64,000 nt of DNA, from the IMG/VR virus record IMGVR_UViG_3300028920_000059, positions 1 through 64,000 of that record. One strand, 5' to 3'. The DNA is from a virus. Shown here one piece after another: positions 3,628-41,191 of the stretch. Position 1 is the first letter of the stretch, and the number at the start of each line of letters is the position of its first letter. The position numbers were made by a program, and so were the translations under genes. A model generated the notes under the pieces. That model was not told where the DNA came from and did no database searches. It saw only the letters and a list, made by a program, of their open reading frames with translations.

Positions 3628-3639
3628 AAAGGCCAAGCC

Positions 3640-3951: not shown

Positions 3952-4310
3952 GCGCAGCCACGGACAACCTTGGGTTAGCCACTCGGGCCATGAAGCAGAA
4001 GGCCATCTATTGGGGCCTGCTGGATGTGGACGAGTATGGAAAGCCCAATCCTGCCTCACCGGTAGAGATCAGTTGCCGGTGGGAGCAGGTGTCCGTGGAG
4101 TTTGTCGAACCTAATGGCGAACGGGCTTTGAGCCGGGCGCGGTTGATTGTGGACCGGGACCTGGAGGTGAAGGGCAAGCTCAAGCTGGGCGCCTACGACG
4201 AAAAGATCCAGGAGGACCCGGACCGCAATAATGACGTGTACGAGATCCGCCAATTCAACAAGACTCCCAACTTCCGCGGCACCAAATATATTCGGGAGGT
4301 GTTCCTCTAA
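3948..4310 (+). CDS. Neck / head-closure protein candidate, 120 aa
   Basis: The frame is open from 3876, but GTG 3948 forms a GTGA overlap with the previous stop and starts where the protein becomes distinct (VSAATDNLGLATRAMKQK). The protein is beta-rich and ends in RGTKYIREVFL. It lies between the connector and the gp10-like gene, where siphoviruses carry the head-closure (stopper) protein. The role rests on gene order and size; the family is not otherwise recognised. Confidence 0.5.
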   Translation: MSAATDNLGLATRAMKQKAIYWGLLDVDEYGKPNPASPVEISCRWEQVSVEFVEPNGERALSRARLIVDRDLEVKGKLKLGAYDEKIQEDPDRNNDVYEIRQFNKTPNFRGTKYIREVFL

Positions 4311-4669
4311 TGGTTGGCATGCTAAATGTCGTTGGTGTTGCAGGAGTTCGCCGGGCTATGCGGATGAGCGCCGGGACGCGAATTGCCGTAGAACGGGGAC
4401 TAAAGCGAGCCGGGTTGTTTGTCCAGCGGGAGTCCCAGAAGATTGTTCCTGTGGACACCGGCGCCCTCAAGAACAGCGCCGGGACCTCCAGCACGGGGTT
4501 CGGTTGGAACACAACCGTTGCGGTTTTCTACACTCAGTCGTATGCCATCTATGTCCACGAGCGGACGGAGCTACGTCACAAGCCGGGCAAGCGAGCCAAG
4601 TTCTTGGAAAGCGTAGTCCGTGAACAGCGTGCCCGCATCCTGGCCATCATCGCGGGGATTGGAAAATGA
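4310..4669 (+). CDS. HK97 gp10-like tail-completion protein, 119 aa
   Basis: Contains the family hallmarks IVPVDTGALKNS near residue 44, YAIYVHER near residue 80 and HKPGKRAKFLE near residue 90, followed by a helical C-terminus. HK97 gp10-like proteins act at the head-tail joining step. It overlaps its neighbours by one base (TAATG) and four bases. Length fits the family. Confidence 0.8.
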   Translation: MVGMLNVVGVAGVRRAMRMSAGTRIAVERGLKRAGLFVQRESQKIVPVDTGALKNSAGTSSTGFGWNTTVAVFYTQSYAIYVHERTELRHKPGKRAKFLESVVREQRARILAIIAGIGK

Positions 4670-8486: not shown

Positions 8487-8492
8487 AGCACC

Positions 8493-9329
8493 ATGGCTGA
8501 AAAAGCATATATCGACCACATAGAAGTTCTGGAAGCCTCCGAGCGCCATGGTGCACTTCGGCGGTTGGTACGGGCATGCTATGTGAACGGGATTGATACA
8601 ACCACTTGGGAGCTTCTCACTCAAGGTTTGGATAATGCTGAGGTACCTCAGTATGGAAGCTATCTCACCGACGCGGCGGTCAACGCTTCGGACCTCATGC
8701 TGGTGGAACGCAATCCCCGCATTCAAGACAAGAACTCCGTCATGGTGGAGTTGGTCTACGAAAACTTCATGGACCTGCCCGAGAATCTGGACAATCCCCG
8801 TGGCGGGTACATCGGTGGCGAGGTGCGTTGCAACCTGCAGCAGAAAACTTCCAACCTGGACATCAATGGCGACCAAATCACGGTCTCCCATCACTACCCT
8901 GAGGATGATCCGCAGTACCCAGACGAAACCAAAACCCAGGGTGGTGAGATCCAATACTTCGAACCGCAGCGGGCCATCCACATCCGTGGCATCAAGCAAA
9001 CCCAGACCCCGTGGCTCCTCGCTAATGCCATTATCGGTCGAGTCAATAATGCCACCTGGAGCGGCGAGGCGGCCCGGACTTGGTTGTGTACTGGGGTGCG
9101 CTGGAAGCTGGCATGGTTGGGACCGGGGGCCACTGGACTCCATAGGTATTTCCTCGACTTTGAATTTCAGTACGACGCCGATACCTGGGACCCAACGGTG
9201 GTATTCATAGACGATCGCACAGGTAAGCCCCCGCCGGATCTCGTTGAAGGGACGGGATACAAGACCATCACCAAAATGCCTTCGTGCAACTTTGACTCCG
9301 TTATCGGTGCACAACTGCAGGGGGCGTGA
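8493..9329 (+). CDS. Minor tail / virion protein, 278 aa
   Basis: The first gene after the tape measure, where distal-tail or hub proteins usually lie. Recognisable features are a long beta-rich middle and a block ATWSGEAARTWLCTGVRWKL near residue 190 that I associate with uncharacterised virion proteins. There is no clear distal-tail fold motif. The stop shares an A with the ATG of the next gene. The function is inferred from position. Confidence 0.6.
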   Translation: MAEKAYIDHIEVLEASERHGALRRLVRACYVNGIDTTTWELLTQGLDNAEVPQYGSYLTDAAVNASDLMLVERNPRIQDKNSVMVELVYENFMDLPENLDNPRGGYIGGEVRCNLQQKTSNLDINGDQITVSHHYPEDDPQYPDETKTQGGEIQYFEPQRAIHIRGIKQTQTPWLLANAIIGRVNNATWSGEAARTWLCTGVRWKLAWLGPGATGLHRYFLDFEFQYDADTWDPTVVFIDDRTGKPPPDLVEGTGYKTITKMPSCNFDSVIGAQLQGA

Positions 9330-10648: not shown

Positions 10649-11842
10649 ATGGCCGTCAATCAACCACATCGACCGATGAAGCCCCTCTTCCGCAAGGGGG
10701 ATGTGCTGACTGCAGATGCTATCAACCAAATCATTGATGGTCGCTTACGCCAGATTCTTGGCGGCAAAGGAATCAAGGTAGCCTCCTTCGGTGATCGGGT
10801 GGTAGTTTCATTGACCGAAGAACTGTCGAAACGATATTTGCCTCAAGCGAATGAAGTTATTACCGACACCACCGAATTCGATGGAAACCTTTCAGCAGAC
10901 GACGACACGGTGCAAAAGGCATTGGAGACATTAGATGAATTGGTGGTCGATAGCGCCTCCGCTGGCGAGGATGAGGTGATTGTTGAAATCAGTGAGGGCG
11001 TTTCCGCAGGTATGGCCATCGGTGATATGGTTGTGGCTCGGTTGGATACGGGGGATTGGATAACCGCTACCCTCGCTACGACCAAAGTGGCATATCGCAA
11101 GGGTGTTTGCATCAACAAGCTGGATGATACTACGGCAGAAATACTCACCGCCGGCAGGTACACGTTCGCCACAAGCCAGGGTCTCTCGGCTTCTACTGTG
11201 TATGGAATCGACAGTAACAATGACGGTCAAGCGGGTTTGTATTTTTCACTGGGTGGCGGGGTAGACCCCACCTTCATCCCGTTCTTTGTGGTAGACGGGA
11301 CCGACACGCTTACCATCAGCATGGTGACCCACATCCCCGAGCAGATGGATGAGGAATTGGATGGGGATAAGTTGTATGATAGCGACTTTGGTTTGATCGA
11401 ATTGAAATTGAATCAAATCGGGGACACCATTATTTTCTTCAACATCTCCAGCACATATGATGATGGGACCTACAGTGATCTCAGCGATGGAGCTTGGGGA
11501 TTTTTCTACGTGACGAATTTCAATCAGGATAACGAAACGGCAGATTTGTATTTCTTCGGAATGGTGGCGGAAGAAAACGGCAGTGAAGCAGGACACCCAG
11601 ACCATCTCCACAGCCACTACCGAACTTCATTTCAAGTTATCCAAGACGGTCAAGCTGGAGTGGCTACTAAGGATTCGTTGACGGATAGTTACACTACAAT
11701 CAGCCACCCTTCCGTTCGAGGATTGACCATTCAGGCACAGGTTGCCACCAGCACGTACCAACCATCCATTTTCTTCACATTTACCACTGACGAAGACATC
11801 GGAGTATGTTACGTCCAGTTGGTGAGAATGACGGATATGTAA
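10649..11842 (+). CDS. Putative tail fibre / adhesin, 397 aa
   Basis: The N-terminal 60 residues (FRKGDVLTADAINQIIDG) resemble the attachment start of tail appendage proteins. They are followed by TEFDGNLSADDDTVQKALETLDEL, a motif common in phage fibres, then beta-rich domains and a C-terminal domain with a histidine-rich turn (HPDHLHSHY) around residue 315. The probable job is receptor binding. It lies directly before the Fn3-like protein and the glycan cassette, so it is a prime candidate substrate for glycosylation. Confidence 0.6.
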   Translation: MAVNQPHRPMKPLFRKGDVLTADAINQIIDGRLRQILGGKGIKVASFGDRVVVSLTEELSKRYLPQANEVITDTTEFDGNLSADDDTVQKALETLDELVVDSASAGEDEVIVEISEGVSAGMAIGDMVVARLDTGDWITATLATTKVAYRKGVCINKLDDTTAEILTAGRYTFATSQGLSASTVYGIDSNNDGQAGLYFSLGGGVDPTFIPFFVVDGTDTLTISMVTHIPEQMDEELDGDKLYDSDFGLIELKLNQIGDTIIFFNISSTYDDGTYSDLSDGAWGFFYVTNFNQDNETADLYFFGMVAEENGSEAGHPDHLHSHYRTSFQVIQDGQAGVATKDSLTDSYTTISHPSVRGLTIQAQVATSTYQPSIFFTFTTDEDIGVCYVQLVRMTDM

Positions 11843-11843
11843 A

Positions 11844-12500
11844 ATGGCTACCTATTACAAAACCTATCGCCAAGACTACCGTGTAGCCGACGATAGCCTC
11901 GCCAAATACGAACTGTATGCCGGCGAGGATGAAATGCCGGACTTCGACCACTCCCTTCAACCAGTCGCCACCAGCGCCACCCTCCCCTTCGACTGGACAC
12001 CCGATCTCCCTGATTCCGGTTCCACTACTCAGCTCTACCTTGTAGTGCGTCGTCGCAATAAGTACGATATGCTGTCGCACAACCGATATCCGACCATCAT
12101 TGAAATTGATGAGCTCGGAGACGAGGTATTGGGGCCGCTTACCAATCCTGAAATTGAAAACATAGCAGATGGAGCTACCGGGGCCATCATCGTCCATGCC
12201 CGTTATCCTTGGGGAATAGATCGGGATCCGGCAGACCAATGGGAAATCTACGTCAAGCAAGGAGTGGACCCGGACCCCGATGTGGATAATCCCACGGCCG
12301 TTGAAGCGTTCGGGCGGTTTGGAATCGACTACCGACTCCATAAGACCATCAGCGGCCTGACTCCTGGAGCCACCTACCATGTTCTCGTCGCCGTTATTCG
12401 GTCGGACGATTCCGACGGCGGTCGTGGGGAATCTGCGGTCTCCCAACACACTACCGCCGAGGCAGTGGACCTCGACCCAGATGATGCGGAGATTCTGTAA
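11844..12500 (+). CDS. Fn3-like virion protein, 218 aa
   Basis: Beta-rich protein with two domains of fibronectin type III character: an N-terminal one (residues about 15-95, with TTQLYLVVRRRNKYD) and a C-terminal one (about 105-205, with ISGLTPGATYHVLVAVIRS, the typical end of an Fn3 fold). Probably a tail tip or fibre component. It is the last clear virion gene before the glycosyltransferases, and its final base overlaps the ATG of the next gene (TAATG). Confidence 0.55.
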   Translation: MATYYKTYRQDYRVADDSLAKYELYAGEDEMPDFDHSLQPVATSATLPFDWTPDLPDSGSTTQLYLVVRRRNKYDMLSHNRYPTIIEIDELGDEVLGPLTNPEIENIADGATGAIIVHARYPWGIDRDPADQWEIYVKQGVDPDPDVDNPTAVEAFGRFGIDYRLHKTISGLTPGATYHVLVAVIRSDDSDGGRGESAVSQHTTAEAVDLDPDDAEIL

Positions 12501-13171
12501 TGGTGGAAATTCTCAAAGAAGCAAAGCACGACTCCGGCCACTCCGCCCGGCCGTTGGTCATTGCTTACTTCACCGTGGATACCCCCTACGAACACGAAGC
12601 GGAAACGCTCAAGGCCAGCTTGGAGAGCGTCGGATATAGCTACCATGTTTGTGGCATCCCGAACTTTGGGTCCTGGCAACGTAACACCCAGGCGAAGGCC
12701 TATTTCGTACAGCAGATGCTCCAGACCTATCCCGGCCGCCCGCTTCTTTACCTGGACGTTGACGCCATCATGGTGAAGGCACCGGAACTCTTAGATAACC
12801 TGGATGCCGACATCGCTGCAGCCCACTTCGCCAAGAAGCCCCGCGGACGCCCTATGGGTGAACTGCTGAGTGGGACGGTTTACTTTGGTAATACCGTGCA
12901 ATGCAATCGGGTCGTCCAGAAGTGGATCAACATCAACGAGCAATATCCCGAGACTCTTCCCAACGGACGGGCCGCTTGGGACCAGCGTACATTGGAGATT
13001 GCTATCAAGCGAATCTCTAGCGTCAAGTTCGTTGAGCTCCCCACCGAGTACACCTTCATCGTAGAACTTACCCAGCGCCATCATCCCAACCTGCAGCCCG
13101 TCATCCTCCACACCCGCGGCGCCAAGCGGTTTAAGCGTTTGGTCAACGGACAGAAGGGCTACGAAAAATGA
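12500..13171 (+). CDS. Glycosyltransferase, GT-A type, 223 aa
   Basis: A predicted nucleotide-sugar glycosyltransferase. The start PLVIAYFTVDTPYEHEAETL has the look of a Rossmann-like GT-A core, and LLYLDVDAIMV near residue 80 carries the metal-binding D-x-D motif. FGSWQRNTQAKAYFVQQML precedes it, as in families where a helix closes the sugar-nucleotide pocket. A conserved SGTVYFGNT loop and a C-terminal LHTRGAKRFK follow. Donor and acceptor are unknown. First gene of the glycan cassette, with ATGA coupling to the next gene. Confidence 0.65.
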   Translation: MVEILKEAKHDSGHSARPLVIAYFTVDTPYEHEAETLKASLESVGYSYHVCGIPNFGSWQRNTQAKAYFVQQMLQTYPGRPLLYLDVDAIMVKAPELLDNLDADIAAAHFAKKPRGRPMGELLSGTVYFGNTVQCNRVVQKWININEQYPETLPNGRAAWDQRTLEIAIKRISSVKFVELPTEYTFIVELTQRHHPNLQPVILHTRGAKRFKRLVNGQKGYEK

Positions 13172-13824
13172 GCTTGGACATTTGGGCGGTATGGCCAACC
13201 GTACACCCCGAGCTCAGTCGGGCCATGATAGCCTTGTGGCACAGCAAGGGCTACAAAGTCGCTTGCCTAGTCAACCCTCCTATAGTCAATGATGATATTC
13301 CCGAGGCCGATATGGTGATTGCCCAACACAAGTGGATGGGCTTTCCGATTGCCGCTAATATCCTGTGCTGCGAAACGCCTGGGGACATCGTCGTCGTTGT
13401 GGGGGACGACGTATATCCCGACCAATCCAAGGACGCCCAAGAAATTGGAGAAATCTTCGTGGAGCGGTTCCCCGATTTGTTCGGAGTCATGCAACCAACC
13501 GGGGATAAATATGGTTGTTGGGACAAGTGTGCTGTGTCCCCGTGGATTGGTCGCAAGTTCATCTTGGAGGCATACGACGGCGCCGGTCCCTACTGGCCGG
13601 AATACTACCATTACTTCAGCGACGAGGAACTCCAGGCGTATGCCACAAGCCAAGATGCCTTCCTACAGCGGGAGGATATCACCCAGTTCCATGACCACTG
13701 GCAGCGTCACGAAAAAAAGAAACGTCCCAAACACCTTCGAAAAGCGAAAAGGGAGTGGAGCCAAGACCGTTGGACATTCAAGTGCCGATCCAAGCGGGGG
13801 TTCCCATGTCAATCGAAGGTTTGA
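13168..13824 (+). CDS. Glycosyltransferase-like protein, 218 aa
   Basis: Begins LDIWAVWPTVHPELSRAMI, followed by a short hydrophobic strand and GDIVVVVGDDVYPDQSK, which places an acidic pair where GT-A enzymes bind the metal and nucleotide sugar. A tryptophan/tyrosine-rich segment (GPYWPEYYHYFSDEELQ) may form the acceptor side. The C-terminus is strongly basic. The class is an inference from the motif and from its position between clear glycosyltransferase and SPASM genes. Confidence 0.5.
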   Translation: MSLDIWAVWPTVHPELSRAMIALWHSKGYKVACLVNPPIVNDDIPEADMVIAQHKWMGFPIAANILCCETPGDIVVVVGDDVYPDQSKDAQEIGEIFVERFPDLFGVMQPTGDKYGCWDKCAVSPWIGRKFILEAYDGAGPYWPEYYHYFSDEELQAYATSQDAFLQREDITQFHDHWQRHEKKKRPKHLRKAKREWSQDRWTFKCRSKRGFPCQSKV

Positions 13825-14732
13825 ATTTATCCCTGTCTGCTCTGTGCCCGGCGTCGTGTGTATTCTGCCCGACCGAACGGGGAACTCGGGATGCTTGTTT
13901 CATGGAACCCTCCTTAGTTGTGAAGTTGGTAGAGGAGGCCAGTTCCCCAGACTTCCCGTGGAAGGTAAAGCAAGTGCAGACTGGGGAGAATGGTGAGGCC
14001 TCCTGTTCCCCATTCCTCTTGGATAACCTCCGCACCATTCGCAAGTACCTACCCAGGGCTAAAGTAAACCTTACCTCCAACTTGTATTCCCTGACTCAAC
14101 GCCAAGCCGAATCTATTATGAGAGAACGGCTGTTGGATAGCCTGCAGCTCAATATCGATGGCCACAATGCGGAGACATACGAGGCCCAGAAAGGGATAAG
14201 CTACAAACGGGTCATGGGGAATCTCCGGATGCTCCTGCACGAAAGGAAGACCCACCATCCGTCCTTCTCTGTGGGCATCAACGTACTAACCCTCCATGAT
14301 TACTGCGTCCGAGCCAAGAAACGCTTTGGCCAAACCCCTATGAACGCCCCTGAGGAAATTCCATTCTCTTCCCATGAGTTGGTTGAGAAAAGTCTGCGAA
14401 AGCAAAAGTGGATGACGGATGATATACACATCCGAAAGTCCCCTTCGTTTTTCTGGGCGGAACGTGGGATGGATGTGGACGCCGTCAACGACTGTTGTCC
14501 GCAGCTGCCCCGCATATTGAAGGAGGCATTCATCAGTCCTTCGGGGCTTTGGTATCCTTGTTGCTTGGATTCAAATCAGGACCAAGCCTATGGCAGCGTC
14601 AAGGAAAACACGCTCCAGGAAATACACGACTCCGAAGCCCGGCAGAAATTCATCCAGCGGTTACAGGCTGGGGAATTTGAGGAAATTGGGTACCCATGCA
14701 ACCGATCGGCTTTTTGTAAGGGGATGAAATGA
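13806..14732 (+). CDS. Radical SAM / SPASM domain protein, 308 aa
   Basis: CPASCVFC near residue 13 is the CxxxCxxC motif that binds the radical-SAM [4Fe-4S] cluster. VQTGENGEAS further on fits the SAM-binding beta strand region. The C-terminus has a cysteine set typical of SPASM auxiliary clusters: DCCPQLP, YPCCLDSNQ, then GYPCNRSAFCKG. SPASM enzymes mostly modify peptides or sugars, including sugar epimerisation and dehydrogenation. ATG 13806 begins just before the conserved start; the frame is open from 13755. It overlaps both neighbours. Confidence 0.8.
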   Translation: MSIEGLNLSLSALCPASCVFCPTERGTRDACFMEPSLVVKLVEEASSPDFPWKVKQVQTGENGEASCSPFLLDNLRTIRKYLPRAKVNLTSNLYSLTQRQAESIMRERLLDSLQLNIDGHNAETYEAQKGISYKRVMGNLRMLLHERKTHHPSFSVGINVLTLHDYCVRAKKRFGQTPMNAPEEIPFSSHELVEKSLRKQKWMTDDIHIRKSPSFFWAERGMDVDAVNDCCPQLPRILKEAFISPSGLWYPCCLDSNQDQAYGSVKENTLQEIHDSEARQKFIQRLQAGEFEEIGYPCNRSAFCKGMK

Positions 14733-21617: not shown

Positions 21618-22180
21618 AATTCCACCACCGTTCCTGTTTTGAGTTCGTTGATGTGGGTGACCATGATAAACTGCACGTCCATCTCGTCGGCGAGGGTTTC
21701 CAGTAGTTCACGGATCCTCTCGCGGTACTCCTCGCTCACGTACTTGAATGGTTCATCCATTATGAGAACACGACGCAAGGGTGGTTTATTGAGGATCAAG
21801 CACGAAAGCCGAAGCGCAAAGCTGGCTACGTCTACGACGCCACCTCCGCTTGCGGTCATGGGATCGACTTCGGTACCATCGCGCTCAAATGTTAGCCGAG
21901 CCTCCGTACGGTTGCGCTTGCGCTCAAAGTGGATATTGAAAGTGTACGGCTCGTCAAAGACGGCGCTTAGGCATCGACTCACGACGCCGGCGATTTGATC
22001 GTGCGCCTGCTGCTGAACTGCTTGAGCAACATGCTGAGCCAAGTCCTGCGCGGCTTTCGCATCCTCAATACGTTGTTCGTTGGCGGCTATATCAGACGCG
22101 ATGGATTTACAACGGGAGCGGGCGGCGTTGAATTCACCCAGCTTCCGATTTATCTTTATGCGTGCGTTAGCAAGATCCAT
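21614..22180 (-). CDS. SbcC/gp46-like ATPase, C-terminal half, 188 aa
   Basis: The product has a coiled-coil start (residues 1-65), then TASGGGVVDVASFALRLSCL near residue 110, the ABC signature region, LIMDEPFKYVS (Walker B with catalytic Glu) and VTHINEL (switch His). It has no Walker A and no CxxC. It is therefore the C-terminal lobe of an SbcC/Rad50-type ATPase whose N-terminal lobe is encoded separately at 24298-25317. The two should associate to form one composite ATP site. UXS lies directly upstream, with ATGA-type coupling on both sides. Confidence 0.8.
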   Translation of the reverse strand: MDLANARIKINRKLGEFNAARSRCKSIASDIAANEQRIEDAKAAQDLAQHVAQAVQQQAHDQIAGVVSRCLSAVFDEPYTFNIHFERKRNRTEARLTFERDGTEVDPMTASGGGVVDVASFALRLSCLILNKPPLRRVLIMDEPFKYVSEEYRERIRELLETLADEMDVQFIMVTHINELKTGTVVEL

Positions 22181-23169
22181 TAGTCATCCAATCCGGGAAG
22201 CTGTCCAAGCCGACCGTTGAGGAGTTGGCGGAAATAGTGGATTGTATAGTATAGACCCATATCCAAGTCGATCTCTGGCTTCCAGCCAATCTCCTCTCTA
22301 GCGCGGTCGATTACCGGCTTGCGCTTAGTAGGATCATCCTGGGGAAGCGGACAGTAGGTCACTTCAGACTTAGTTTTGGATATATGTTTTTTGACAGCCA
22401 CTACCAGTCCTTTCATCGTTGTCTCGACTGGGTTACCGAGATTGATTGGTCTATGGCAGTTTTCGGTATTCATCAACGCTTGGAGTCCGTAGATCAAGTC
22501 ATCGACATACATAAAGCAGCGAGTCTGTAGTCCGTTCCCGTAAATTGTAATATCCTCATTGCGGAGAATCTGGCAAATAAAATTGCTAACCACGCGTCCG
22601 TCATTCGGGTGCATGTATGGGCCGTAGGTATTGAAGATGCGTGCGATACGAATATCAACACCATACTCGCGGCTGTAGTCCATGAAGAGAGCCTCAGCGC
22701 AGCGCTTCCCCTCATCGTAGCAGGCACGAATCCCGTTCGGGTTAACTCGACCCCAATATGATTCGTGTTGCGGATGCACTTCGGGGTCGCCATAGACCTC
22801 TGAGGTACTGGCTTGGAGGATCCGCGCGCCTGTGCGTCGGGCAAGATCCAGAACGTTGATTGCTCCGTGAACGCACGTCTTGATCGTCTCGACCGGGTGG
22901 CGCTGGTAGTGGATCGGTGAAGCGGGACAGGCGAGATTATAGATTTGGTCAACCTCGATATGGATAGGCTGGGTAATGTCGTGTCGGATCACTTCCAGAC
23001 GTTCACGCCTCTTAGGTGTAACACCGTGCAGCGCATGACGCAGGTTGAACTTGGATCCCGTATAGAAGTTATCCAGGCAGATTACTTCGTGGTCGCAGAG
23101 AAGCAAGAAGCGACAGAGATGGGAGCCGATAAAGCCGGCGCCGCCGGTAACGAGAATGCGCTTGGTCAT
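22180..23169 (-). CDS. uxs: UDP-glucuronate decarboxylase (UDP-xylose synthase)
   Basis: [17 protein letters not shown] (residues 7-23) is the NAD-binding loop. [29 protein letters not shown], the [14 protein letters not shown] block with the Y-x-x-x-K catalytic pair, [20 protein letters not shown] and [11 protein letters not shown] are hallmark UXS segments. The enzyme oxidises and decarboxylates UDP-glucuronate to UDP-xylose. 329 residues is the normal soluble length. It sits inside the SbcCD operon between the two halves of SbcC, coupled by overlaps at both ends; its partner enzyme is the dehydrogenase at 51947. Confidence 0.9.
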
Positions 23170-24316: not shown

Positions 24317-25317
24317 AGCGGGCACTCCTCTCCCATCTCGTCGTGGAATTTTTGATCGGCAGCTTTGGCTGCCTTTTTGAGATCCAGCCACTCAGTCGTT
24401 GCCGCTTTGACAGTCCCGATCAACTCTGCCAGCTCAACGCGATCTGCGTCAACCGCATGAATATTGAGTTGCAGGTCAACTAGCTTCTGGACATCATCCT
24501 CCGGGATCCACCGATTGGATGCAATCTCGTCCTGGCGCATTTGGTTGATTATTTTCTCCAACGCCTCCACCTGCTCGTGGATCCTCTCCCACTGGTCGCC
24601 CAGAGAGATAACCTTATGGGCCGCCTCCAGCGTCTCTCGCTGGTGCTCTTGTTGGTGGGTATGCTCGCCTAGGGTCTGGATCAGATCAGCGAGCACACGC
24701 GATTCCTCGGCGTGCTGGAGCCATTCGCCGTTGTAGACCTGGGCTAGGGACAGCTCCCCGTCGGCTTTGCGCGTCCACTTGAGCTTGGCTCGTTCCTCCT
24801 TCGCCTCCTCCAGCTGGCCGGAGAGGACCCGAGCCTCCGCCAGAGCATCACGATTGGTCTTGTCCAGCTTGGCTAGTGTTGAATCTATAATCTCAAGATC
24901 AACGATGCGGTTCAGCTGCCGACTGACTTCGCCTGCCGTTTCGGTAAACCAGAAGGGACTATCGTGCTGGCCTTGGAAGTTGATTTCATCCAGGTTGAGG
25001 AGCGTGGTGATATCCTCCGGTGGCTCGTTCCCGAAGGCTTTGTAAACCTCGTCGTCCAGGAAATAGTCATTTTTGGATTTGGAGCGCTGCCGAGTAATGC
25101 ACCGGCCATCGACCGATAGATTGACTTCGGCTTGCTTCCCGCCGTCGCGGATGAATTCTTGGCCAGCCGGACGGTTGGTTGCAAGCCAGCGAAGCGCACG
25201 AATGACTGCGGACTTTCCTCGGTCGGAGGCACCGACGATTGACGTCACGCCTGGGTCGAGATCCAGCGCCAGCTTCTGGTGGGCTTGGAAGTTCTTGATG
25301 GTTAGCTTAGTGAACAC
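24298..25317 (-). CDS. SbcC/gp46-like ATPase, N-terminal half with zinc hook
   Basis: GTG 25317 follows GGTAGGAGG at proper spacing and opens with VFTKLTIKNFQAHQKLALDL, the standard SbcC start. VGASDRGKSAVIRALRW (near 35) is Walker A, NFQGQHDSPFWF fits the Q-loop. Residues about 155-330 are coiled coil, and the gene ends at ECPLCGQSL, a zinc-hook CxxC nine residues from the stop. The protein (339 aa) therefore stops just at the hook; the returning coil and ATPase lobe are on the gene at 21614. Confidence 0.85.
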   Translation of the reverse strand: MFTKLTIKNFQAHQKLALDLDPGVTSIVGASDRGKSAVIRALRWLATNRPAGQEFIRDGGKQAEVNLSVDGRCITRQRSKSKNDYFLDDEVYKAFGNEPPEDITTLLNLDEINFQGQHDSPFWFTETAGEVSRQLNRIVDLEIIDSTLAKLDKTNRDALAEARVLSGQLEEAKEERAKLKWTRKADGELSLAQVYNGEWLQHAEESRVLADLIQTLGEHTHQQEHQRETLEAAHKVISLGDQWERIHEQVEALEKIINQMRQDEIASNRWIPEDDVQKLVDLQLNIHAVDADRVELAELIGTVKAATTEWLDLKKAAKAADQKFHDEMGEECPLCGQSL

Positions 25318-25795
25318 CGAGTTGCCTCCTACCGTATTCGGCGATACAGAGAGCATCGGCCAGACCGTCGTCATCCTTGGTGGAGCGGGCCGTGCGTTTG
25401 AGGCTGACATCGGGAAACAATCGTTTGGCCACCAGAATGGCTACATCCTTGGTCCCCTTGGGCATGTCCTTGCACATGACCCGCTTCCAAGTGGTGGGGT
25501 GAACGAGGGTGTAGGGCAGGTGGAGACCTACGCATATCCCTCGAAGCAGTCCCCAGCCGGCCCCAAAGTTGAAGGCCGAGGCAATTCCTTGGCCGGGCAT
25601 GGACTGGACTTTCTCGATATAGACATGTTGGATGGCGCTCCGCCGGTGCTCTAGGATTTGCCGCACGGTCACCTCGTCCACCGCTCGCTTGTTTTTGGTA
25701 ACACGGAGGACCGGAAGGGGACGAACGGTTACGCCCCGTCCCCGCCGGAAGGCGATGGCTCCCTTCATGCCAGGGTCAATTCCGATGATCATCAT
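25307..25795 (-). CDS. RuvC-like Holliday junction resolvase, 162 aa
   Basis: IIGIDPGMKGAIAF at the N-terminus carries the first catalytic Asp of RuvC folds. YIEKVQSMPGQGIASAFNFG near residue 62 is the Glu-containing second motif, and KDDDGLADALCIAEYGRR at the C-terminus holds the last Asp pair. Such phage enzymes cut branched DNA before packaging. AAGGAGG precedes adjacent ATGs at 25795 and 25792. The open frame further upstream runs into the pentamer array and is not coding. It overlaps the SbcC N-half by 11 bases. Confidence 0.85.
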   Translation of the reverse strand: MMIIGIDPGMKGAIAFRRGRGVTVRPLPVLRVTKNKRAVDEVTVRQILEHRRSAIQHVYIEKVQSMPGQGIASAFNFGAGWGLLRGICVGLHLPYTLVHPTTWKRVMCKDMPKGTKDVAILVAKRLFPDVSLKRTARSTKDDDGLADALCIAEYGRRQLGVH

Positions 25796-25812: not shown

Positions 25813-26191
25813 AAACCGTACCAAACCACACCTGACCGAACCCTACCTTACCCAACCGTACCGAACCTGCCAAACCAAACCTAACCCTATCCAAGCCAAC
25901 CATACCGCACCTTACCTAACCCGACCTGCCAAACCAAACCGTACCTCACCACACCGTACCCGACCGTACCTAACCAAAGCTCACCATACCTGCCATACCT
26001 TACCAAACCTCACCCTACCCCACCATACCGGACCCAACTTCACCCCACCATACCTGCCATACCTTACCAAACCGAACCGCACCTTACCCTACCCTACCAC
26101 ACCGAACCTGCCAAACCCAACCGTACCTTACCGGACCCCACCGAACCGAACCGTACCTGCCAAACCCAACCAAACCACACCGCAGCCAAGT
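25813..26191. repeat. Degenerate pentamer array (NNACC on +, GGTNN on -)
   Basis: About 380 bases with no gene. On the + strand it is a run of NNACC pentamers, interrupted by TGCC tetramers at 25868, 25927, 25991, 26055, 26109 and 26158. The stretches between tetramers are 55, 60, 60, 50 and 45 bases, all exact multiples of five, and 50 bases from 25818 to the first. Of the 64 pentamers in these six blocks, 60 end in ACC (exceptions ctatc, caagc, aaagc, caact). The first two bases vary almost freely. The - strand, which is the transcribed sense, is thus G-rich. It separates the resolvase gene from 26192-26677. Confidence 0.95.
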
Positions 26192-26677
26192 CTACAGTTG
26201 ATCGATGACGTGCCAGACGGCGGCTAATTCTCTGAGGGCTGCGTATTTTGTACGACAGACTTTTAGTTCTGCTCGTGCCCGTTGGAGTACCTGCTTTCTC
26301 CGTTTCGGATCAGCTAGGGCTTCCTCCAGGCTTACCCATTCGTTTCGCGGAGCATCTTCGTCCTCCGTCTCTGTTTCCCGCACGACGGGGGTGTATACAC
26401 GAACAGGTGTATCCACCCCTTCAACTCGTACAACGATGGACCGAAGCATTTGGGCCGCTCGGATACGATAGTATTCCGTTGCCGCCTGCTCCTTATCCTT
26501 GATGTATATTTCGGGGTGGAGAGGACTGTTCTTTTTCTTGGCCTCCTGGACCAAGATGGCGGGCGTGACCCCTCCGCCGTTGGCTTTCCGTAGACGTTGG
26601 ATTTCTTTGTGGGCTACCTTGGCATCAATCCTGGATTGATAACCGGCCTTCCATTCTACCTTGATGGTTTTTGCCAT
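26192..26677 (-). CDS. Hypothetical charged helical protein, 161 aa
   Basis: ATG 26677 (MAKTIKVEWKAGYQSRIDAK) follows AAGGAGAAAAACC; the frame is open upstream to 26704. The product is lysine/arginine- and glutamate-rich and mainly helical, with an acidic insert (ETETEDEDAP) near residue 115. KANGGGVTPAILVQEAKKKN near residue 32 suggests a helix-turn DNA- or protein-binding part. It ends directly at the pentamer array. Not recognised. Confidence 0.6.
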   Translation of the reverse strand: MAKTIKVEWKAGYQSRIDAKVAHKEIQRLRKANGGGVTPAILVQEAKKKNSPLHPEIYIKDKEQAATEYYRIRAAQMLRSIVVRVEGVDTPVRVYTPVVRETETEDEDAPRNEWVSLEEALADPKRRKQVLQRARAELKVCRTKYAALRELAAVWHVIDQL

Positions 26678-26700
26678 GGTTTTTCTCCTTGGGAAAGACG

Positions 26701-27282
26701 TCAATTGGTTTTGACCTGGAACCTTCCGTAGTCGCCTCCCTTTTGAGGACGCATCTCCAGTAAGCCCACGCCGAAACCGGCTCGGTCCAACAGGTTCACG
26801 ATGTCGTCCGGGCGAAGATTTTCTGCATCGAACTCGATGCTAATGTCGCTCTCCCACCCGCTTGGAAATTCGGGACGGTATCGGAGATCCGTTCCTCCTT
26901 GGCCAACTCGGACGCAGTCCTCCCTCATCACCGGTTCACCACATCGCATGGGGATTGTGTTGTTCGCGTCGGAGCATAGGACGAAAAGGGATTTGCGAAC
27001 CAGTGTCTTTTCGATTCCGATATCCTTGTGGGCTGCGTTGATGAGGCTCTGTTTGATTGCTCCAGCGGGGATTCCGTATTGCCCGTCCTCTGTTCTATGA
27101 GTGGCCGCCTCGCACTCTTCTTCTGGGATACACACTTCACGAGTTTTGGTTTTCCTGCCCTCCTTTTTGTCTCGCATCTGCTTGCGAGCTTTCTCGGCCC
27201 AACTATGTTGGATCAAGGGAGAGGTCCCTTGGATTGTGACGCTGAGAACTTTGCGTTGGATTGGCTTTAGCTTGATGGCCAT
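26701..27282 (-). CDS. Conserved phage protein of unknown function, 193 aa
   Basis: The start SVTIQGTSPLIQHSWAEKA and the end FGVGLLEMRPQKGGDYGRF are patterns I associate with an uncharacterised phage family often found near recombination genes. The middle includes GIPAGAIKQSLINAAHKDIG, a helical block preceding a beta-rich half. No catalytic motif stands out. Good SD (AAGGAGCC) before ATG 27282. Confidence 0.65.
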   Translation of the reverse strand: MAIKLKPIQRKVLSVTIQGTSPLIQHSWAEKARKQMRDKKEGRKTKTREVCIPEEECEAATHRTEDGQYGIPAGAIKQSLINAAHKDIGIEKTLVRKSLFVLCSDANNTIPMRCGEPVMREDCVRVGQGGTDLRYRPEFPSGWESDISIEFDAENLRPDDIVNLLDRAGFGVGLLEMRPQKGGDYGRFQVKTN

Positions 27283-27939: not shown

Positions 27940-28832
27940 TCTCCTCTCCTTCTCAGCTTCGGTCGCATTGTATTAAAGAAGGAGATCCACTCCCCACGGC
28001 GCGGTTTGCGTAAGTAACTTAGGAAGCCATAACGCTCACACATGGAGAAGAAGGCATCTGGGTTGTACTCGGGTTCCCTCAGTTCAAAGGTTTTGGTCTT
28101 GAGATGGGGAAGCGCCACCAGCTTTTCGTTGCGGCTGATAATCGTCTCACCGTCGTAGCTGGTAATGGCTTTGTAGGTTTTGTAGTGAGGAGGGAGCTGG
28201 CGAGTCAGGAACTTGATTGCTGTTTTTACTCCGACTCCGGGAACGCCCGGCACGTTATCGCCCGAGCATCCTGCAATGCATTTGACGTCACGCCAGAGAG
28301 CAGGTTCAATTCCCTTCGCTTCGATAAAGCTGTCGGAATCATAGCCCTTTCTTCTTGCGGGATCGTACCAGCGAACGTAGTCGCTGATGCACTGCCAGAG
28401 ATCGCCGTCGGCAGATACGATGATTCCTTTTTCCTTATTACTAGTCAGGATGTTGGCTGCCTCTGCGATCAGGTCGTCGGATTCCAATCCGGTTTGGCGA
28501 ATGACTTGAAAGCCGATAGCTGGGAGGATCGTTCGACGTAGCAGCTTGATTTGGTCGTACATTATGCCCAGCTGCTCTTTCTCCTCGTCGGTCATATCCT
28601 TCTTACGATCTCCCTTGTAGGACGGGAGGATCCGCTTACGATAGGACTGGCGCGAGTCGAAGAACAGTACGACCTTATTGGAGTTGATGTTGGGATCGGA
28701 GCAGATCGTACGAAGCTGTTCCCAGAATCCAAACAGGATGCCGGTATTGAAGTCATCGTAAGCCAGGTCCGCCGTAGCGTAGCGGGCGCGATGCGCGAGA
28801 AATGAAATGTCAATGAGGACCCAGGGCTTCAT
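27936..28832 (-). CDS. 5'-3' exonuclease / flap endonuclease, 298 aa
   Basis: WVLIDISFLAHRARY (first metal Asp), KVVLFFDSRQSYRKRILPSY (YKGDR follows), TGLESDDLIAEAA and IVSADGDLWQCI are the FEN/Pol I 5'-nuclease acidic motifs. AGCSGDNVPGVPGVGVKTAI is the helix-hairpin-helix DNA grip. Probable jobs are removal of RNA primers and recombination, as with T5 D15 or T4 RNase H. ATG 28832 has no clear SD, but AGCGATAAT, a -10-like box, lies only four bases before it. Confidence 0.9.
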   Translation of the reverse strand: MKPWVLIDISFLAHRARYATADLAYDDFNTGILFGFWEQLRTICSDPNINSNKVVLFFDSRQSYRKRILPSYKGDRKKDMTDEEKEQLGIMYDQIKLLRRTILPAIGFQVIRQTGLESDDLIAEAANILTSNKEKGIIVSADGDLWQCISDYVRWYDPARRKGYDSDSFIEAKGIEPALWRDVKCIAGCSGDNVPGVPGVGVKTAIKFLTRQLPPHYKTYKAITSYDGETIISRNEKLVALPHLKTKTFELREPEYNPDAFFSMCERYGFLSYLRKPRRGEWISFFNTMRPKLRRRGE

Positions 28833-28837
28833 ATCTA

Positions 28838-29098
28838 TTATCGCTTGTCAGTCGATAATCCACGTTGGCAACGTGGACACTTGCAGGGAGCACACCAGCG
28901 CAGCTTGTCCACGGCCTCGTTGATAAGACAGGCACTAAAGACATGACGTGCGGTATCCTCACGCTCGTGAGGCTCATATGCCCAACCGTATGCCGTCGTG
29001 ACAATAATGTAGCCATTCTCGTCGCCGGTGTAGTCATCGTCGCACCAGTTCTCAATTCTTTTCTTGAGATACTTGGGCATGTAACGGGGTATCGGCAT
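28838..29098 (-). CDS. Small cysteine-rich protein, 86 aa
   Basis: ATG 29098 follows AAGGAGATGCGTA and shares its A with the stop of the previous gene. The C-terminal WCAPCKCPRCQRG gives four cysteines suited to a zinc site. The rest is acidic and aromatic (YTGDENGYIIVTTAYGWAYE). Possible DNA- or protein-binding zinc protein; not recognised. Confidence 0.6.
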   Translation of the reverse strand: MPIPRYMPKYLKKRIENWCDDDYTGDENGYIIVTTAYGWAYEPHEREDTARHVFSACLINEAVDKLRWCAPCKCPRCQRGLSTDKR

Positions 29099-34230: not shown

Positions 34231-35559
34231 TTATCCAGACGCCTCCTCGCACTCATCCCAGTACGGGCAGTCGTCGCACTCGTCGTGCTCGTCGAGGTCC
34301 TTTCCGAACGTACCGTTGGCAGGGCACTTGGGCGTCTTGGGCTTGCTACCCTTCTTGGTGCTGCCCTTCTTGGTGCTACCCTTCTTGGTGCTACCCTTCT
34401 TGGTGCTGCCCTTCTTGGTGCTGCCCTTCTTGGTGCTGCCCTTTTTCTTCTTGGGCGGCTCGGGCTCCTGTTCATCGTCATCTTCGTCATCAGGGTCGGG
34501 GATTTGCTTTTTGCCCGTGCCGTTGCAGGGCTTGCACTTCTTGCCCTTGCTGCTTTTGCCCGTTCCCCCGCAGGCGATGCAGACGTTAGGATCGGGCTTC
34601 TCGTCGTCCTCGTCATCATCGTCATCATCGTCGTCCTCGTCATCATCGTCATCATCGTCGTCCTCGTCATCATCGTCGTCCTCGTCGTCCTCGTCGTCCT
34701 CGTCATCATCGTCGTCCTCGTCGTCCTCGTCATCATCGTCATCATCGTCGTTGTCGTCGTTGTCGTCGTTGTCGTCGTCCTCCGGCTCGGGATCCTTCTT
34801 CTCCTCTTCCTCTTCCTCGTCGTCGTCCTCGGGATCCTTCTCGTCCTCTTGCAGGAACATGACGTTGAGCTTGTTGTAGTCCATAACCTGCAGCGACTCC
34901 TCCAAGCAGACAACCTTTTCCAAGATATCGTCCTCGTCCAGCTCGTCACGCTTCTTGAAGTCGATCTTGGTGGCCTTGAGGAACTTTCTACCGTTGAAGG
35001 ATTCCTCGCTGAAGCGCACGCGAAGGGTTCGGCCCTCCTTATTGACATCGAAGAAGGCCAGGTGCTCCTCGTTATCGGGATCCTTCAGCTCATCCTCCAG
35101 AGTCGCAGCGAACTTACCGCGGCTCATCACGAAGAGACAGATGCGCTCATCGTTCTCGGGATCCAGTACGTTATAGGCAACGTACCGCTGGGCGCGTAGC
35201 TCTCGGGTAAGCTCCTCATTCTTGTCCGCATCTTCCTTGAAGAGGCGATTGCGCTCCTCGCAGATCGGGCACTTCTTGCCGATGCTCTGCGGACAGACGA
35301 CGCTATCGGAGTTGGCACCGATACCGTGGTGGACGGCGAACGGGAACTTGTACCAGAGGACTCCCTTCTCGATGTCGTCGGGGTGCGTCTTGGACTTCAC
35401 CTCATACGGCACGATATTGATAGAGAATCGACCGGCCTTTTCCGGTACCCACTGGCCAACCTCCTCGGGGAGATCAAACCAGCTACTACCTCCTCCCGAT
35501 CCTCGGGCGGCGTTATCCCGGACTTTTTCCCGGGAGGCTCGTTTACGCTTGCGACTCAT
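34231..35559 (-). CDS. Single-strand DNA-binding protein with acidic tract
   Basis: Residues 1-235 are a gp32-type SSB: SSWFDLPEEVGQWVPEKAGR, GVLWYKFPFAVHHGIG and a C-P/CPIC set (residues 89-100) suited to a zinc site. Residues 239-321 are almost only Asp and Glu. Then come CIACGGTGKSSKGKKCKPC (327-345, two DnaJ-like CxxCxGxG motifs), an acidic stretch, about seven tandem GSTKK units (373-405) and a C-terminal cysteine set (412, 428, 431, 436). Phage SSBs have a short acidic tail; this one has an enlarged tract and two added modules. ATG 35559 overlaps the small membrane-protein gene. Confidence 0.85.
   Translation of the reverse strand: MSRKRKRASREKVRDNAARGSGGGSSWFDLPEEVGQWVPEKAGRFSINIVPYEVKSKTHPDDIEKGVLWYKFPFAVHHGIGANSDSVVCPQSIGKKCPICEERNRLFKEDADKNEELTRELRAQRYVAYNVLDPENDERICLFVMSRGKFAATLEDELKDPDNEEHLAFFDVNKEGRTLRVRFSEESFNGRKFLKATKIDFKKRDELDEDDILEKVVCLEESLQVMDYNKLNVMFLQEDEKDPEDDDEEEEEEKKDPEPEDDDNDDNDDNDDDDDDDEDDEDDDDDEDDEDDEDDDDDEDDDDDDDDEDDDDDDDDEDDEKPDPNVCIACGGTGKSSKGKKCKPCNGTGKKQIPDPDDEDDDEQEPEPPKKKKGSTKKGSTKKGSTKKGSTKKGSTKKGSTKKGSKPKTPKCPANGTFGKDLDEHDECDDCPYWDECEEASG
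34348..34445 (-). repeat. 15-bp tandem repeats coding GSTKK units
   Basis: On the + strand the unit reads as variants of a 15-mer encoding KKGST backwards, about seven copies with mostly synonymous changes (gctacc versus gctgcc). It encodes the lysine-rich spacer between the DnaJ-like zinc motif and the C-terminal cysteine set. Copy number is likely to vary between isolates. Confidence 0.85.
34597..34845 (-). repeat. Asp/Glu codon microsatellite
   Basis: About 83 codons, nearly all GAC, GAT, GAG or GAA, encode the acidic tract of the SSB. Codon mixing (GAC and GAT alternate) argues for coding selection rather than a simple triplet expansion. Prone to slippage and assembly error. Confidence 0.8.
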
Positions 35560-38275: not shown

Positions 38276-38593
38276 TCAACTCTCCGTCTCTTTTATATCG
38301 CTGGCTGGCTTCTCTTTCGCCCAGAGGAAGTTTGCTATTTCAACCAGCACTTCATTCTCCAGCAATCGTAGGTGGATACAGTTGCGTTGCTGCTTATTCG
38401 GGAAAGCATCTCCATAGATGATGTCGCCCAGAAGTCCAGGGTTGATTCTTGCACGACGCCCGAGCTTGACCATTCCGGAGCGCAGCAGTCTCTCTTGAAG
38501 CAGGTATTCTAGGAACTTGCCATAGATAGTTCGCTGAACGGGCTTCCCGCCAAAGCGTTTTCTGGATTTCTGGAAGTGGAAGTCAGCCGGCAA
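38276..38593 (-). CDS. Small HTH-like protein, 105 aa
   Basis: Basic N-terminus, then KLGRRARINPGLLGDIIYGD near residue 43, which resembles the helix-turn-helix of Cro/XRE-type regulators but is short. The C-terminal half has RLLENEVLVEIANFLW. Overlaps the polymerase gene by 11 bases. A regulator or DNA-binding accessory protein is possible. Confidence 0.5.
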   Translation of the reverse strand: MPADFHFQKSRKRFGGKPVQRTIYGKFLEYLLQERLLRSGMVKLGRRARINPGLLGDIIYGDAFPNKQQRNCIHLRLLENEVLVEIANFLWAKEKPASDIKETES

Positions 38594-39986
38594 TGGATTG
38601 TTCTTTCTTCTGATACCAGTTGCCGTCTACCGGAGTGACCTCCGCTTCGACCTCAAGTGGGACGTTGATCCACGACCATGCTTCCTTCAAGCGCCGGACC
38701 ATTACATCCTGGGCCATTCCTAAGAAGTCGTCCAGCTCCTCCATTGGGATGTCTCCGATTACGCTATCGTGAATCTGACCGACCAGTAGCGATTCCATCT
38801 TCTGCTTTTCGATCTCGTCTTGGATCCCGATCAGCGACTTGAGCAGACAGTGAAAGGCAGATCCCTGGACGGGATAGTTGATGATTTCGTTGCGCTTCAT
38901 CCACCCTTGGCAGATAAAGCCGGTAAGCGTTTTCATCCAACCGCGATCGTTGTACTCCCGGACCCACTTTTTCTTCCAACGGTCATAGATCGGGAAGCGT
39001 TTGGTCCAGAACTCCTTTTCAACCTGCTGGATGTGTCGCTCCATGGTTCCTTTACGTGGCTTCTCTCTCGGGTCGCAGTCGCCTCGCTCCCTGATTCCCT
39101 TAGAGCGCAGGTGCTCTTTGAGACTCGTCCCGTCTCTTAGCTGTAAGTCCAGCTGGTCGATAGCATCCCAGAGGCTCTTAGCGCAGTCGATATACCAGTC
39201 ACCGTAGAACTGGGGGAACACAAACATATTCTTACCGCAGTAGCGAATCTGCTTAGCTCGTTTATCGGACGGGACCATTTCATCTAGTGGTAGACGGAAG
39301 CACTCCATCGCCATATCGCGGTGCATGTCCTTAGTTTTATCTTCAAGATACTCTAGCATCGTTGGATCTTGGTGGTAGCAGGCGGCGATACAGACTTCAA
39401 TGCCACTATAGTCAAGCTCAACGAGACAACGACCTGGTCGTGCAATGAAGGCCTGACGAATTAGCTTGGCAATCTTAGGATCACGAATCGGGATGTTTTG
39501 GAAGTTCGGACTGTCCGAGCTAGAGCGATAGGTGCGCGCCATATTGAGATTGAAGCCTGGGTGAAGATACCCGTTGACAACCTCCCGCTCGATACCCTGC
39601 AGGTAGGTCGTGAGACTTTTCTTCATTTTCTTGAGCTGAAGATAGTCCTTCACGAACGGGTTGTCAATCTTGGCTAATGCTGTCTCGTCTGTCTTATATA
39701 TCTCGTGCTTAGTTTTCTCTCCGGTGTAGCCCATAACTTCAAATAATATGTGACCAAGCTGCTGGCCACTATCCACATTGGTCGCGCCTTTGTATTCCCG
39801 CTTCCATATCTTCAGTATCTCGGACGTTTCAAGCTTCTCGGTAGTTCGATTGATTCGCCGTCGAAGTCGTCGCTGCGCTTTGGCCAGATAGCTCGTGTCG
39901 ATCCGGATACCATTCGCTTCGATCTTGGCTAACGTGATCGACCCGTCGTGGAGTAGCTGGTAGGCTTCCTTAGAGTAGGGAATCAT
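38583..39986 (-). CDS. Family A DNA polymerase, polymerase domain only
   Basis: 467 residues covering only the Pol I palm/fingers/thumb: PGFNLNMARTYRSSSDSPNF and QNIPIRD (motif 1), LVELDYSGIEVCIAACYHQD (motif A), RAKQIRYCGKNMFVFPQFYG (motif B, with the K and YG), and VGQIHDSVIGD (motif C; HDS replaces the usual HDE). The 3'-5' exonuclease is on the next gene upstream (39983). The genes overlap by ATGA, so both parts are probably made together as a two-subunit polymerase. Confidence 0.9.
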   Translation of the reverse strand: MIPYSKEAYQLLHDGSITLAKIEANGIRIDTSYLAKAQRRLRRRINRTTEKLETSEILKIWKREYKGATNVDSGQQLGHILFEVMGYTGEKTKHEIYKTDETALAKIDNPFVKDYLQLKKMKKSLTTYLQGIEREVVNGYLHPGFNLNMARTYRSSSDSPNFQNIPIRDPKIAKLIRQAFIARPGRCLVELDYSGIEVCIAACYHQDPTMLEYLEDKTKDMHRDMAMECFRLPLDEMVPSDKRAKQIRYCGKNMFVFPQFYGDWYIDCAKSLWDAIDQLDLQLRDGTSLKEHLRSKGIRERGDCDPREKPRKGTMERHIQQVEKEFWTKRFPIYDRWKKKWVREYNDRGWMKTLTGFICQGWMKRNEIINYPVQGSAFHCLLKSLIGIQDEIEKQKMESLLVGQIHDSVIGDIPMEELDDFLGMAQDVMVRRLKEAWSWINVPLEVEAEVTPVDGNWYQKKEQSIAG

Positions 39987-41191
39987 CGGAGTGCTTCCAT
40001 CTGGCGCTGGGCTACGTGATACTCCAAGAGAGAATCAAGCCCGTTGTAAAGTAAGAGGTCCTCTTGGTTGATGTCGTTGATTCGATTGAGATTGTTCGCG
40101 CCTCTTTCACCTTCGCCTTTTAGGTATGATAATACGTGCGATGAATAGTCACTGATTCCAAGATATACGAACGCTTGGAACTTGATCGACGTGATACCGG
40201 AGCGATTATCAATGCAGTGTGCTGCCAGCATCGTATCCCAATGCCAGCCTACGACTCCGTGGCCAAGCTTAGCTCTCGTCCAGCGTTCCTCAAACTTGAG
40301 ATTGGATGCGATCTTGAGTAGCTTGGGCTTGCGAAGTATTTTGCTAACGAGACGCCGCACGCCCTTGGTAAATGGGATGGCGAAAGTGTCCTCCCCATCG
40401 AGGCAGAAACTGACCGATACGATCCGCTGTTCGACTCTCTCTGGTTTCAGGCCCGTCGTTTCGTAGTCCCAAGCCAATTGGCCTTCACACTTGAGGAGCT
40501 CCCGGAGACGCTTCTTGGCCTGCCCTTCTTGGGTGATAATCTCAACTTCTGATTGAAGATCAGCAAGCGTCGGCGCTGTTCGCGGGATCCCTTCCATGTG
40601 GAGACTGACGGCGCGGAGTAGCTGCTCCTTGAAGATCAACTCAAGCAGCTGATCGCCATCGGATCGAAGCACGTAGCTCGGGTGGAATACCGGGCAGACC
40701 CATGCGTTGTATTCATGACATGGGATCGTCCAGCCTACCCATTTGGAGATGGAGTCAACTCCCTTTTTCCAGAGCGGGGTGATGAGCGATTCCACAGCGG
40801 ACTTCCCGAGCGGAATGATCACTTCTGGTTGCAGTTCTTGGATAGCCTGGAGGAGAGCCGGTCGGCATGCCTTGATATACTTCGGGTCGATCTTGTTTTC
40901 GGGTGGTCGACAGGTAACGGCGTTGGTTATCCAGCAGTCATCTAAATCAACCCCGATGTCCTCCAAGAAGCCCCGAAGCAGCTGACCGGCCTTCCCGACA
41001 AATTGGGTGCCCTGTCGATCCTCCTGCTCACCTGGCGCTTCGCCAACGAAGAGGATCTTGCGCTTCCCTTTTCCGGATGGCTTCATCTTCGGACTGAAGC
41101 AGCCTTTCGATAGACCACACAGCCCACACTGGGATGACTTTGGCTCTGCTACGACTTTTCGATTCCAGGAGGAGGCGGGGAGGAGGCTCAT
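39983..41191 (-). CDS. Uracil-DNA glycosylase / 3'-5' exonuclease fusion
   Basis: Residues about 15-200 are a family 4 UDG: QCGLCGLSKGC (FeS Cys), ILFVGEAPGEQEDRQGTQF, WITNAVTCRPPENK, ACRPALLQAIQELQPEVIIP and CPVFHPSYVLRS. Residues about 225-400 are a DnaQ/Pol I-type exonuclease: LAWDYETTGLKPE (motif I), ASNLKFEERW (II), WDTMLAAHCIDN and LLYNGLDSLLEYHVAQ (III, with the D and following Y-like end). It proofreads for the polymerase encoded downstream. Joining UDG with proofreading implies removal or sensing of uracil at the fork. 402 residues. Confidence 0.85.
   Translation of the reverse strand: MSLLPASSWNRKVVAEPKSSQCGLCGLSKGCFSPKMKPSGKGKRKILFVGEAPGEQEDRQGTQFVGKAGQLLRGFLEDIGVDLDDCWITNAVTCRPPENKIDPKYIKACRPALLQAIQELQPEVIIPLGKSAVESLITPLWKKGVDSISKWVGWTIPCHEYNAWVCPVFHPSYVLRSDGDQLLELIFKEQLLRAVSLHMEGIPRTAPTLADLQSEVEIITQEGQAKKRLRELLKCEGQLAWDYETTGLKPERVEQRIVSVSFCLDGEDTFAIPFTKGVRRLVSKILRKPKLLKIASNLKFEERWTRAKLGHGVVGWHWDTMLAAHCIDNRSGITSIKFQAFVYLGISDYSSHVLSYLKGEGERGANNLNRINDINQEDLLLYNGLDSLLEYHVAQRQMEALR

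Follow-up and report, generated by a model that had tools for sequence, protein, structure and literature searches.

A GGCA-phased GGTNN array beside a predicted RAMP gene is very probably a phage VIPR guide-RNA cassette

VIPR (Viral Interference Programmable Repeat) was described in a 2026 bioRxiv preprint (PMC13142463), where Vipr is a small phage RAMP with guide RNAs termed vrRNAs. A vrRNA comprises 9–16 pentamers, each a GGY triplet plus two hypervariable bases (NN). Through these NN bases the guide pairs with double-stranded DNA, one target base being skipped between pairs and mostly coinciding with the wobble position of a codon, and the complex represses transcription, chiefly of rival phages and satellites (PMC13142463). 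Both the SUSP1 and the P. fulva systems were shown to express vrRNAs that Vipr binds; for SUSP1, in which GGY and NN are both needed, the one-base skip and repression were demonstrated as well. A structured 3' tail of the vrRNA is described for the SUSP1 clade, array architectures vary, and "staggered arrays with overlapping vrRNAs" are named in fig. S18 (PMC13142463). In KT454805 the SUSP1 vipr gene, which was assigned here from the preprint's description and homology, lies at 28474–29061 (minus strand) and is followed by a small gene and then by GGY arrays.

The window analysed here is the 64,000-nucleotide stretch at positions 1–64,000 of IMG/VR virus record IMGVR_UViG_3300028920_000059. 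It contains a locus that is very probably a phage VIPR guide-RNA (vrRNA) cassette with vipr and vap genes. Since VIPR was described in 2026, the locus adds another VIPR system and is a further member rather than a new kind. Its features, with the variable bases of each block read as a putative guide, are:

26701–27282, minus strand: vipr gene, 193 aa, predicted RAMP/Cas7 fold, phrog_4652 (function unknown in PHROG)
26192–26704, minus strand: candidate vap (VIPR-accessory protein) gene, 170 aa from a TTG start, phrog_15946
26181–25813, minus strand: GGTNN array (putative vrRNA array), 69 pentamers in seven blocks with six GGCA tetramers between them
26162–26181, minus strand: block 0, leading partial block of 4 units, GT TT TG TT
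26113–26157, minus strand: block 1, 9 units, AC TC TC GG CC AA AC TG TT
26059–26108, minus strand: block 2, 10 units, TC GT AG AG AA GC TC TT AA AT
25995–26054, minus strand: block 3, 12 units, AT GG GA TG CC AT GG AG GA TT AA AT
25931–25990, minus strand: block 4, 12 units, AT GA TT TA AC CG AC GT GA AC TT TT
25872–25926, minus strand: block 5, 11 units, CG TA AA GC AT TG TG AG TA TT TT
25813–25867, minus strand: block 6, 11 units, TC AC TG AA AG TC CA GT TT AC TT
25307–25795, minus strand: RuvC-like Holliday junction resolvase gene, downstream of the array, phrog_1770

A parse of the minus strand reproduced the coordinates, strand, 5-nt period, free N positions and one-base shift at each GGCA given in the preliminary description of this DNA. 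The GGT triplet is exact in 65 of 69 pentamers, and in the six full blocks in 61 of 65 (60 of 64 in the earlier count). In order, the blocks hold 4, 9, 10, 12, 12, 11 and 11 units; all six tetramers read GGCA, at steps of 9, 10, 12, 12 and 11 units, with a closing block of 11. Entropies of 0.11, 0.31 and 0 bits at the first three positions of the unit, against 1.80 and 1.99 bits at the last two, indicate three fixed and two free positions. With full blocks of 9–12 units and positions 4–5 at 1.8–2.0 bits, the array thus consists of GGY/NN pentamers, hypervariable at NN, in the vrRNA range of 9–16. Autocorrelation, proposed earlier as a check, gave the expected peak at lag 5 and further maxima at 10, 15 and so on, which later move to 44, 49, 54 and 59 because the 4-nt GGCA units shorten the register by one. 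Neighbouring blocks share their last units before GGCA (TG TT twice, AA AT twice and TT TT twice). Positions 26182–26191 are merely a degenerate lead (ACTTGGCTGC) that follows the upstream gene's stop codon directly.

The array stands alone in this genome: the window contains no further chain of four or more GGY units, and the whole 85,788-bp virus record contains no second run of five GGTNN. No structured 3' tail was found between the window blocks, which GGCA alone separates. Because the tail is described for the SUSP1 clade and architectures vary, its absence argues against a SUSP1-like form and not against VIPR. In a folding test, none of 100 shuffles folded less well than the array RNA, weak folding being as expected for an open guide. 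Neither an Rfam scan nor a tRNA scan gave a match, and no direct-repeat/spacer pattern of the CRISPR type was found in the array; the earlier statement that it is neither CRISPR, iteron nor microsatellite was correct for the array pattern. A coding origin was rejected, since the lengths of the blocks do not divide by three and the N positions vary freely.

The vipr product has no significant match in Pfam, NCBIfam or PADLOC, and neither NCBIfam nor PADLOC has a model for it or for the candidate vap product. Its AlphaFold2 model, built on a 29-sequence alignment, has a mean pLDDT of 93.6. Searched against the PDB with Foldseek, this model found class 1 CRISPR effector structures in 50 of the 50 matches listed, of the Csm, Cmr, type VII and gRAMP types (best E-value among the matches listed, 8.6e-7), on which grounds the product is predicted to be a Cas7-like RAMP. 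An invariant Gly/Arg motif lies near its C-terminus (G169, G173, R178, G186), and the 193-residue protein agrees, by its predicted fold, with the small single-RRM RAMP with a G-loop that is typical of VIPR. It is also homologous to an experimentally characterised Vipr: the window and SUSP1 proteins both fall in PHROG 4652 (E-values 2e-29 and 1e-96), and a family profile built here matches SUSP1 Vipr with an E-value of 4e-36 in a search of two sequences.

Between vipr and the array, overlapping the end of vipr, sits the candidate vap gene, with an in-frame ATG nine codons after its TTG start. Of 89 relatives, 79 have a homolog, which mostly adjoins vipr, so that the locus has a conserved gene in the place of an accessory vap. 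Its structure prediction is of low confidence and gave no significant fold match, and its product shows no similarity to SUSP1 vap1. The RuvC-like resolvase gene is probably a neighbour outside the VIPR system, since it was not found in related VIPR loci. No CRISPR families occur among the scanned neighbour genes, and cas genes were not found.

Three other regions of this tailed-phage genome deserve mention. A gene at 34231–35559 (minus strand) with a weak match to phrog_1192 (single-strand DNA binding protein) carries, in its C-terminal part, about 7 copies of a KKGST repeat together with a long Asp/Glu tract; the corresponding DNA repeats lie at 34344–34443 and 34600–34831. The DNA polymerase is encoded in two adjoining genes, 38583–39986 and 39983–41191 (minus strand), which match consecutive parts of phrog_17. 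Nucleotide-sugar epimerase and UDP-glucose dehydrogenase genes, at 22180–23169 (minus strand) and 51947–52969 (plus strand), are possible sugar-modification genes.

A scan of viral contigs for seven consecutive GGTNN units returned more than a hundred stretches, simple microsatellites included. Dozens were degenerate arrays, several with a constant spacer that differed between loci (GGCA, GGCAGTT, GGCTAATG, or longer and AT-rich). When the ORFs near 48 good arrays, which had been found independently of the Vipr protein, were clustered, one family, vipr, occurred at 36 of the 48 and mostly adjoined the array. Conversely, a protein search of viral contigs with Vipr found 80 loci, 72 of which have arrays, and in all 72 at least one array (GGYNN) lies on the vipr strand. 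The related phages, then, do not have random sequence at this place, an outcome that the preliminary description had named as counting against it. In loci of the vipr clade 585 of 641 spacing tetramers read GGCA, and full blocks most often have 9–11 units; the triplet is frequently GGC, some relatives have GGCA every 1–6 units, and some loci carry arrays on both sides of vipr. Named relatives of the window Vipr include the Gordonia phages ODay, Ecliptus, Pipp and UmaThurman, 27 Mycobacterium phage records and cyanophage Cy-LDV1; the loci of ODay, Pipp, Quico and Cy-LDV1 have GGC/GGT-NN arrays with the GGCA tetramer. None of the ruvC-, sbcC- and sbcD-like genes, the 5'-3' exonuclease gene, the recA-like gene or two small ORFs that neighbour the array in the window was found in the loci of 89 relatives, and the vipr-vap-array module therefore seems to travel alone.

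Several of these loci are remarkable in themselves. L209 has a very large GGY/NN array (7346–8495; about 200 units with 25 tetramers), L183 about 4 kb of such arrays (10675–14652) and L074 about 25 blocks with the spacer GGCAGTT (3243–4392), i.e. these are phages with dozens of guides. Inside the VIPR array of L169 (7178–7680) the unit GGCAC GGCTA GGCA (or GGTA) recurs about ten times, as though a 14-nt piece had undergone slippage or expansion. The closely related contigs L014 and L126 are near-identical in their flanks and Vipr and differ in the guides between identical GGCTAATG spacers, that is, the guides were replaced and the scaffold was kept. Loci L100, L043, L050 and L061 form a Vipr clade separate from that of the window and share KKTDD and DPRSPRKS-like motifs.

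As vipr, vap and the array follow one another on one strand almost without gaps, they are probably transcribed together. Following the preprint's model (PMC13142463), the GGU triplets would hold Vipr, one subunit per five nucleotides, in the manner of Cas7 subunits on a crRNA, and the NN bases would be displayed for pairing with a gapped target, read NN, skip one, NN, skip one. The complex of Vipr and guide would then bind rival phages' double-stranded DNA where it matches the guide and prevent its transcription, and phages probably use VIPR to switch off the genes of their rivals. A block of about 9–12 units would correspond to one guide and GGCA to a boundary: being one base short, the tetramer cannot keep the 5-nt register, and it therefore probably marks where guides begin and end. 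Somewhat more tentatively, with the doubts on the whole slightly prevailing, GGCA may be regarded as the punctuation of this Vipr clade, the register break delimiting the guides in an unbroken, tail-less array. If so, guide maturation would be unlike that of the separate, tailed vrRNAs of SUSP1.

Candidate targets were sought by reading the window blocks as NN-skip-NN against viral contigs, with 16–18 fixed bases per block. Block 3, scanned at nine units, gave one match, which extends to ten units (2–11; 20 of 20 bases) and falls in viral contig L134/G001, within a 596-aa ORF whose wobble positions coincide with the skipped bases; the virus concerned has a weak Vipr homolog (E-value 5e-5) and GGY runs. 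Units 1–9 of block 5 matched 15 contigs. In eight of these the match falls, antisense, in one gene, at codons for YLHQMAFYR with the skipped base again at the wobble position, and the phages are diverse. The gene is annotated in three cases as exonuclease VIII / DUF3799 (PD-(D/E)XK nuclease), and six translated sequences are alike. The scan also matched a different gene, out of phase, in six closely related contigs, a clump attributable to chance. Against genome contigs block 5 had 8 matches, where a rough estimate of chance is about 7.5; three lie in a YL(H/Q)Q(M/I)A(F/L)YR motif, and a Rhodopirellula genome bin has a ten-unit match. At eight units, block 1 gave 8 matches, 5 of them in wobble phase, in mostly unrelated proteins. 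Of the five window guides for which nine units were scanned, those of blocks 2, 4 and 6 lacked an exact nine-unit target in viral contigs, and no block had a self-target above background in its own 85.8-kb record.

Guides of the relatives were read in the same manner. Translated as codons, a guide of L207 gives A-[HQ]-[DE]-[IM]-G-[HQ]-[FL]-V in the sense direction, and guides of L178, L172 and L185 give A-[HQ]-[DE]-[IM or L]-G-[HQ]-[FL]-V in antisense. All four are compatible with AHE(I/L)GH(F/L)V, an HExGH motif that is probably the zinc-binding motif of ImmA/IrrE-like proteases, enzymes that cleave phage repressors; judged from these codon readings, the four guides suggest that an ImmA-like repressor protease has been targeted repeatedly. 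A guide of L196 matches the conserved end of another phage's vipr in phase (19 of 20 bases) and a second vipr nearly as well.

In bulk, about 640 guides read with the one-base skip against 2.4 Mb of fetched loci had 16 sites with at most one mismatch, compared with 18 for unit-reversed controls, and among the fetched VIPR loci no skip length was in excess. This null result, which is not support, could be due to most targets lying in phages outside the sample. Comparing guides with their reverse complements yielded three exact 6-unit pairs against 1–5 in controls, so that the fuzzy cluster around L207 alone is of interest. The target calls (exonuclease VIII, HExGH and vipr) are suggestive matches of sequence. 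As they are single cases and no bulk excess was seen, the listed targets are hypotheses, the identity of the locus as a VIPR system being near certain.

Two other explanations would place the function of the array outside VIPR. As a DNA-level replication origin or recombination zone (R-loop, G-quadruplex or RecA loading), it would serve the resolvase, SbcCD and RecA-like genes; the non-template strand is indeed G-rich, ruvC-, sbcC- and sbcD-like genes adjoin, and GG runs every 5 nt could give two-layer quadruplexes. Such a zone leaves the two free positions, the fixed pyrimidine and the GGCA register breaks without reason. In relatives the triplet is often GGC, and in some loci arrays flank vipr on both sides. 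The array moves with vipr and not with its window neighbours: arrays were mostly seen with vipr, in unrelated gene neighbourhoods. For this reason the RecA-loading zone and the R-loop origin of the preliminary description are unsupported, and an origin or recombination zone is highly improbable. The same description's lattice for a DNA- or RNA-binding filament came close, as the predicted RAMP encoded nearby belongs to a type of protein that assembles in a row on its guide RNA. TRAP binds 11 triplets with two-base spacers in the trp leader, and the triplets with 2-nt spacers in groups of 9–12, situated in the ruvC leader, resemble its lattice. A regulatory RNA site for a ring-forming RNA-binding protein of that sort, controlling the downstream ruvC, is nevertheless the least credible of the alternatives: no TRAP-like gene is present among the annotated neighbours, the conserved protein nearby is predicted to be a RAMP and not a TRAP fold, relatives have 200-unit arrays (L209) or arrays upstream of vipr without ruvC, and hypervariable bases decoding to conserved protein motifs would be unexpected. 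Both were rejected on grounds of linkage.

Within VIPR, the guides might instead overlap or span GGCA rather than being confined to one per block. This reading is unlikely, though it deserves far more weight than the two preceding ones. It has a precedent in the preprint's naming of staggered arrays with overlapping vrRNAs (PMC13142463), and the GGCA interval of 1–6 units in some relatives is too short for a guide. On the other hand, full blocks peak at 9–11 units, which is the published guide length, and the best matches lie within one block, often from its first unit (block 5, units 1–9 or 1–10; L189, units 1–10; L196, the whole block). With one guide per block, the matches of block 5 and L189 pair at the first units and leave the last one to three unpaired; taken with the last units shared before GGCA, this suggests that a block may use its 3' end as a short tail.

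VIPR has been argued to predate CRISPR. The present locus and its 80 relatives constitute a well-sampled clade that includes cultured Mycobacterium and Gordonia phages, has a compact array form and readable guides, and permits direct tests of the two-in-five code and of the way in which a tail-less array is processed into guides. It also bears on which genes are chosen for silencing rivals, the candidates being an exonuclease motif here and a metalloprotease-like motif and vipr in the relatives.

Among known systems, TRAP sites share with the array triplets at steps of about 5 nt and groups near 11, and differ in protein fold, in triplet and in having no hypervariable code. Class 1 CRISPR-Cas (types III and VII, Cas7 backbone) has in common with the locus the predicted Cas7/RAMP fold and a guide array adjoining the effector gene; in contrast, the window locus has neither cas genes nor a repeat-spacer array, the VIPR guide is spread over two bases in five, and a single protein of about 190 aa is involved. 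The GGCA-phased, tail-less form may be the "staggered" array of the preprint (PMC13142463), possibly the same architecture of contiguous repeats without long spacers. The SUSP1 type II VIPR (PMC13142463; KT454805) differs in that each of its guides is an RNA of its own with a long structured 3' tail, whereas the window blocks abut with just GGCA, and in that the window candidate vap belongs to another family than the SUSP1 accessory protein. Both systems are phage-borne, have vipr in the same PHROG and the order vipr, vap, array, and carry GGY/NN pentamers in blocks of about 10.
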